A DNA stretch of 10,157 nucleotides. Origin: Oscillospiraceae bacterium (GTDB lineage Bacteria > Bacillota > Clostridia > Oscillospirales > Oscillospiraceae). The stretch lies in NCBI GenBank assembly GCA_017458025.1, contig JAFTGG010000260.1, forward strand, positions 1 to 10,157, written 5' to 3'. Made by a program: the position numbers and the translations under genes. Below the pieces are notes generated by a model. The model did no database searches, was not told where the DNA came from, and was given only the letters and a program-made list of their open reading frames with translations. Below are positions 7,596 to 8,078 of this stretch, one piece after another. Within the stretch, counting starts at the first letter, position 1. Each line of letters starts with the position of its first letter.

Positions 7596-8078
7596 TCACA
7601 CCATAAAGAGCAGCATCAGCATCGACGCGAGCAGCGAAAGAATGGCATAGAACTCAACGATACCGCAGAGGATCAGGCCCTTGGACCAGTCGTCGGGCTT
7701 CTTCGCGAGGATGTTGATGGAACCCGCCGCGACGCGGCCCTGCGCGATGGCGGAAAGCAGGCCGCCGAGCGCCATTGGCAGGCAGGCGGCGAGATACTTC
7801 ATGCCGTCGGCCGCCGTCGCGGGCACGGCGCCGCCGAGGATACCGATGCGGGTGAGGCAGACGAAGAACACGACCAGGCCGTACAGGCCCTGCGTGCCGG
7901 GCAGCAGTTGAAGCACCATGACCTTACCGGACTAGCTCGCGTCCTGGCTCAGCAGGCCCGTACCGGCTTCGCCGGCGATGCCGGTACCCTTGGCCGAACC
8001 GACGCAGGAAAGGCCAACCGCGAGGCCGGCGCCAAACAGCGCGAGTGCCATGCCGCCAATTTGTTCAAAGAATCCCAT
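7596..8078 (-). CDS. ntpK: V/A-type ATPase subunit K (proteolipid ring), interrupted by an in-frame TAG
   Basis: Subunit K forms the membrane rotor ring that carries the ion. From ATG 8078 (AGGAGG six bases upstream) the frame reads MGFFEQIGGMALALFGAG..., one transmembrane helix, to a TAG at codon 49 (7934-7932). It then continues in the same frame for 111 more codons to a TGA at 7596. Counting the TAG as a residue gives 160, the normal four-helix double-hairpin length. After it come LQLLPGTQGLYG (56-67), AIAQGRV (110-116) and VEFYAIL (141-147). Leu59, Thr62, Gln63, Gln113 and Glu142 match the Na+ ligands known in E. hirae NtpK (alignment from memory). The TAG falls in the loop between helices 1 and 2, where relatives usually have Lys. 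A restart at ATG 7919 (AAGG only two bases away) would give a 107-residue three-helix piece. No frameshift is needed to restore it. Confidence 0.9.
7932..7934 (-). other. In-frame amber (TAG) codon within ntpK
   Basis: The minus-strand codons read GAC GCG AGC TAG TCC GGT AAG GTC ATG. Everything before and after matches the proteolipid family in one frame. A single base change from AAG (Lys) or CAG (Gln) would produce it. All ten minus-strand genes whose ends lie in the window close with TGA (eight) or TAA (two), none with TAG. Confidence 0.9.

Follow-up and report, generated by a model that had tools for sequence, protein, structure and literature searches.

An in-frame TAG in the V-type ATPase proteolipid gene of an Oscillospiraceae draft genome: probably a local base error, with recoding not supported

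The gene ntpK, which encodes the proteolipid (K ring subunit) of a V-type ATPase in 160 codons plus TGA (7596..8078, minus strand), is interrupted by a TAG at codon 49 (7932..7934, minus strand), and this raises the question of whether the organism reads TAG as an amino acid, whether the gene is broken, or whether the published letters are wrong. The stretch of DNA analyzed here (the window; 10,157 nucleotides) is the entire contig C123 of an assembly of 282 contigs and 2.01 Mb, which is 89% complete and, as we infer, probably derived from a metagenome. It carries a V-type ATPase operon on the minus strand in the gene order I-K-E-C-F-A-B-D. The genes for subunit I (8104..10041; PF01496) and subunit E (6994..7599; PF01991) lie directly upstream and downstream of ntpK, respectively, and are open, as are all of the remaining genes C, F, A, B, and D (1450..6821); the operon genes in the window other than ntpK are both open and conserved.

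The ntpK translation (7596-8078, minus strand) contains a single internal stop (MGFF...SQDAS, TAG, SGKVMVLQ...LLFMV, and the terminal stop). Both ATP-synt_C halves exceed the Pfam cutoff (60.4 and 58.2 bits versus 24) and share one frame, which is not uninterrupted, once the TAG is read through; the conserved Glu of the second half is kept (E142). These data confirm the original prediction of a TAG at codon 49 with an intact coding frame on either side. The TAG lies 2.2 kb within the contig, away from its end, and the letters over 7932-7940, from the TAG to codon 47, are GCGAGCTAG. The same prediction had counted eight TGA, two TAA, and no TAG stops among the minus-strand genes ending in the window, and that tally is right (seven TGA and two TAA for nine genes, plus the TGA of the upstream gene, which is truncated at the window end). 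However, its suggestion that TAG may be rare or reassigned was not borne out: zero TAG in ten stops has a P of 0.35 at the frequency in our larger sample (50/506), so the window tally is uninformative.

That sample comprised the confidently modelled coding pieces of 93 stretches of the same genome (684 kb, 34% of the assembly). The stops of 506 pieces were TAA (234), TGA (222), and TAG (50), with 43 further pieces running off a contig end; TAG therefore accounts for about a tenth of the terminators in this 34% sample, rather than being absent or rare. In 194 kb of stretches from relatives, the corresponding numbers were 89 TGA, 73 TAA, and 10 TAG (n = 172). Back-up stops gave no clear signal, as the next stop fell within 10 codons after 35% of 43 TAG, 31% of 201 TGA, and 25% of 190 TAA ends. 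The release factor 1 gene, whose loss had been proposed as a check on reassignment, was found: prfA (C195:3652-4479) covers model positions 5-282 without internal stops and is cut by the end of its 4,480-base contig, its score of 385.8 bits against a curated cutoff of 423 being that of a cut gene; it scores 385 bits as RF1 but 254 bits as RF2. No match to PylS (TIGR02367) was obtained in this genome, which is 89% complete. Nor did the 684-kb sample yield a second in-frame TAG within a gene: of 72 in-frame stop junctions detected by a method blind to pieces shorter than 20 codons, and after inspection of the DNA at 13 doubtful junctions, three were judged by eye to interrupt a gene, with one TAG, one TAA, and one TGA among them. 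A TGA at C170:146 was considered as a fourth interruption and rejected, since by eye it looks like the normal end of one gene, followed by a TTG start that GGAG precedes. Recoding of TAG is accordingly not supported. As TAG looks like an ordinary stop in this organism, the ntpK stop most likely stems from a sequence error or from recent breakage of the gene copy, and not from a new genetic code. Among the four options originally offered, recoding largely fails against the ordinary use of TAG, the presence of RF1, and the missing PylS, whereas a base error and a recent null allele survive.

What the relatives carry at this position was assessed by an ntpK search of 40 genomes including this one, with matches in 31. 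A close copy is present in 13 of the 17 other members of the genus, none with a stop within the match, and the gene is 94-97% identical to nine of these 13. All 13 encode Lys at codon 49 (AAG or AAA), in agreement with AAG, one of the two ancestral codons predicted. Among the other genus members, no match was obtained in two (G015 and G016), and the matches in two more were weak (G005, 36% identity, and G012, 33%), some of these four genomes being incomplete. One relative's ntpK (G007:C30) is split by 14 N, which we read as a scaffold gap and which would mimic a frameshift. At the family and order level, residue 49 can be Gln, Met, or Leu besides Lys. Of the best 120 among 5,424 protein matches, all but one were anchored; these 119 all have Pro at residue 47, and at residue 49 Lys is found in 118 and Asn in one. 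In the window, codon 47 is GCG (Ala; 7938..7940, minus strand), a private and nonsilent change relative to the Pro found in 13 of 13 aligned relatives (12 from the genus, one from the family).

Measured against 13 relatives (12 from the genus, one from the family), the window's eight V-ATPase genes have six private residues in 1,623 invariant codons, and two of these six, P47A and the stop in place of K49, stand six bases apart in ntpK. The three further ntpK sites that differ from all aligned genus relatives are silent, which argues that ntpK has not decayed; judged by its sequence, the protein appears normally constrained until now, with something odd across a few bases. Across the window, no excess of private changes was found (six in 1,623 codons; the 12 genus relatives have 3 to 34, each over its own aligned codons), nor of close pairs (six private pairs within 12 bases, against 2 to 30 in the relatives), so that a spacing of six bases between two private changes is nothing unusual by itself. 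A genome of another genus, G022, had 231 private changes in 1,444 codons; it is excluded from the 3-to-34 range and was dropped from the close-pair count. The lack of either excess speaks against a generally poor contig, and a base error would therefore need to be local; the position of the TAG well inside the contig also counts against an error.

The two other interrupted genes lie elsewhere in the assembly. The TAA at C9:18001 falls inside a coiled-coil gene (a weak DivIVA match, with 26.3 bits versus a cutoff of 28) that is matched in 18 of 18 genus genomes; the matches from the other 17, many of them partial, are free of stops. It sits within a three-codon run that fits the relatives' repeat poorly; this repeat is present in 10 of 16 aligned relatives and is a gap in six. 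The repeat is fast-changing, and the run could reflect a real change. The TGA at C186:473 interrupts an accessory gene without a family match; the sole relative of this gene in the genus (G008:C1) is itself interrupted by an in-frame TAG.

A CUA-anticodon tRNA, proposed as a further check and expected if TAG is recoded, was indeed found, probably as an assembly fault. A scan of the assembly yielded 30 tRNAs, of which one, called by both Rfam and ARAGORN, has CUA (C186:3481-3560) and makes up the final 80 bases of contig C186. ARAGORN labels it Pyl, a label that we take to derive from the anticodon alone; by sequence it is a tRNA-Tyr with the body of this genus's tRNA-Tyr, and presumably not that of pylT. 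It differs at three sites from all 17 other tRNA-Tyr loci that were fetched (16 from relatives and one from this genome), and since a hand-drawn cloverleaf places these private changes at unpaired positions (9, 34, and the variable-arm loop), the CUA tRNA could fold. The adjacent tRNA-Thr is identical over 76 bases to eight of 12 compared loci of relatives. ARAGORN called tRNA-Tyr(GTA) at 16 of the 18 loci, including the one on C111 of this genome; the remaining two are the CUA gene and the relative locus L081, which a contig end truncates and which received no ARAGORN call, its letters showing GTA. As a separate observation, seven relatives share one tRNA-Tyr sequence over 80 bases, and others have a second form with a different acceptor stem. 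A 26-mer around the CTA had no exact match in the genome_contigs or viral_contigs collections, from which this genome was possibly left out. A phage origin of the CUA tRNA was considered and rejected, as neither the 26-mer nor a 20-mer matched viral_contigs exactly and the GTA form, used as a control, gave four stretches.

The only other tRNA-Tyr match in the assembly is likewise a contig end (C111:25076-25209), in which the 5' acceptor strand is unpaired with the 3' strand. Its 5' half is shared by 23 genome records, of which 14 are titled Lachnospiraceae; the 3' end reads CCATCC in every one of the 23, whereas on C111 it carries the letters of the present genus. By eye, the end of the upstream tRNA on C111 also resembles those records, and no record matches the flank fully. 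Because all 23 records with this 5' half have another 3' end, the C111 end is a chimera of a Lachnospiraceae-type 5' half and a 3' half from the genus. In G004, a genome rated 100% complete in which tRNA-Tyr was matched once, the single Thr-Tyr pair lies between C186 and C111 homologues and its Tyr member has GTA, so the two contig ends are most simply one gene. In G005, G011, G012, and G016, also with one tRNA-Tyr match each, the pair lies between homologues of both contigs with the sides swapped. Other loci weigh against this account: only C186 homologues adjoin the Thr-Tyr pair (G001, G009:C30, and G013:C145), only C111 homologues do so (G006:C27), or a C186 homologue is near the pair and the C111 matches are scattered (G002 and G014:C144); G009:C86 holds tRNAs only, and neither homologue is found at G013:C79, G006:C29, G014:C167, or G008:C54. 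Of the 12 other genus genomes in which tRNA-Tyr was matched, four have two matches, so a second gene may exist here as well. The simplest account of these data is a single tRNA-Tyr gene represented by two contig ends, both of them faulty.

On balance, we consider that the TAG is probably a base error, confined to this spot, in the consensus sequence of a genome that is fragmented and probably metagenome-assembled. This reading draws on the Lys codon of all 13 close-copy relatives, the isolation of the TAG, the P47A change six bases away, and the other faulty or odd spots of the assembly, namely the C111 chimera, the CUA tRNA at the end of C186, and the odd codon run on C9, as well as on the division into 282 contigs at 89% completeness. 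The living organism would then most likely have an ordinary Lys codon at position 49 and an intact proteolipid. We infer both the cause of such an error, which would be thin or poor read coverage at the spot, and the reason why an assembler would keep it; a literature search found no paper on premature stops from assembly errors in metagenome-assembled genomes, nor on mercy k-mers.

A base error has one serious competitor, which we consider possible but tentative: the null allele of ntpK may be genuine and recent, or a variant from a minority strain, with the V-ATPase lost or crippled and an F-type ATPase carrying on. The original prediction called the gene normally essential, and this was not supported, as an F-type ATPase is encoded on C191 (c subunit by PF00137, a subunit below the NCBIfam cutoffs, neighbors assigned by eye) and four of the 17 other genus members, some with incomplete genomes, have no close ntpK. 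The F-type c subunit and its neighbors would make a loss tolerable, AAG to TAG is a single base change, and the silence of the remaining private ntpK sites is what a very young break would be expected to leave. Nevertheless, the other operon genes remain open and conserved, the assembly has other faulty spots, and a null allele does not explain P47A, which replaces a Pro shared by all 119 anchored proteins.

Suppression of the TAG is improbable. Here, the CUA tRNA on C186 would be a second tRNA-Tyr gene that puts Tyr at some TAGs, enough for the proteolipid. Its detection by two programs, its apparently retained fold, the two tRNA-Tyr matches in four of 12 other genus genomes, and the variation at residue 49 beyond the genus, which indicates that the residue tolerates change, are all consistent with such a gene. 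Against it, however, the tRNA is a contig end whose locus, judged by the synteny in G004, is most simply one tRNA-Tyr(GTA) gene; GTA is present in 15 of 15 loci of relatives called by ARAGORN, as well as in the letters of L081; this genome has no tRNA-Tyr match besides the ends of C186 and C111; the CTA 26-mer had no exact counterpart in the collections searched; and RF1 is present, TAG ends 50 of 506 pieces, and the sample showed no second in-gene TAG. In its full form (a duplicated tRNA-Tyr that now has CUA, TAG partly read as Tyr, RF1 terminating at most TAGs, and a proteolipid dependent on the suppressor), we judge it quite improbable, and keep it at all because the fold, as drawn by hand, is retained and a TAG meeting a CUA tRNA in one assembly is no trivial coincidence. 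A literature search on tRNA-Tyr amber suppressors found no paper. If suppression were true, a bacterial chromosome would have been caught at the very start of TAG reassignment.

A proteolipid made in two pieces, the second starting from the ATG at 7919 (codon 54; 107 aa, 7596..7919, minus strand), is highly unlikely: an ATG does stand behind the stop with AAGG just upstream, but the stretch encodes SGKVMV in intact relatives, so nothing has been added for a restart, and we know of no working proteolipid ring piece that lacks helix 1. Genome-wide reassignment of TAG, or its reading as pyrrolysine, is scarcely credible and refuted in the main, having in its favor only the TAG itself and the CUA tRNA, and against it the share of TAG among sampled terminators, the absence of a PylS match, the genus tRNA-Tyr body of that tRNA, and the three different stops at the three interruptions.

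Set against known systems, the gene is closest to the V-type ATPase proteolipid NtpK of the Enterococcus hirae type, with which it shares its length, two PF00137 halves, the Glu of the second half, and the operon order I, K, E, C, F, A, B, D; the window copy differs by the TAG at codon 49 and by P47A. The tRNA on C186 can be likened to the E. coli supF type of amber-suppressor tRNA-Tyr, with a Tyr body, G34 changed to C34, and the anticodon CUA; in contrast to supF, it stands at the end of a contig, carries two more private changes, and has a locus that is a single GTA gene in G004. Gut phages reported to recode TAG to Gln (genetic code 15; PMC9523058) likewise combine in-frame TAG with a CUA tRNA, whereas here a single TAG lies in a bacterial housekeeping operon of an organism that uses TAG as a stop. 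According to Shulgina and Eddy (2021; PMC8629427), the bacterial code changes known before that study all reassign UGA, and in-frame stops of yeast pseudogenes or foreign contigs were mistaken for reassignment. Our locus calls for the same caution, as an in-frame stop together with a CUA tRNA in a draft genome resembled recoding until relatives and synteny weakened both. In the cases described there and in ours, isolated stops mimic recoding; here, a contig end resembling a CUA tRNA adds to the mimicry.
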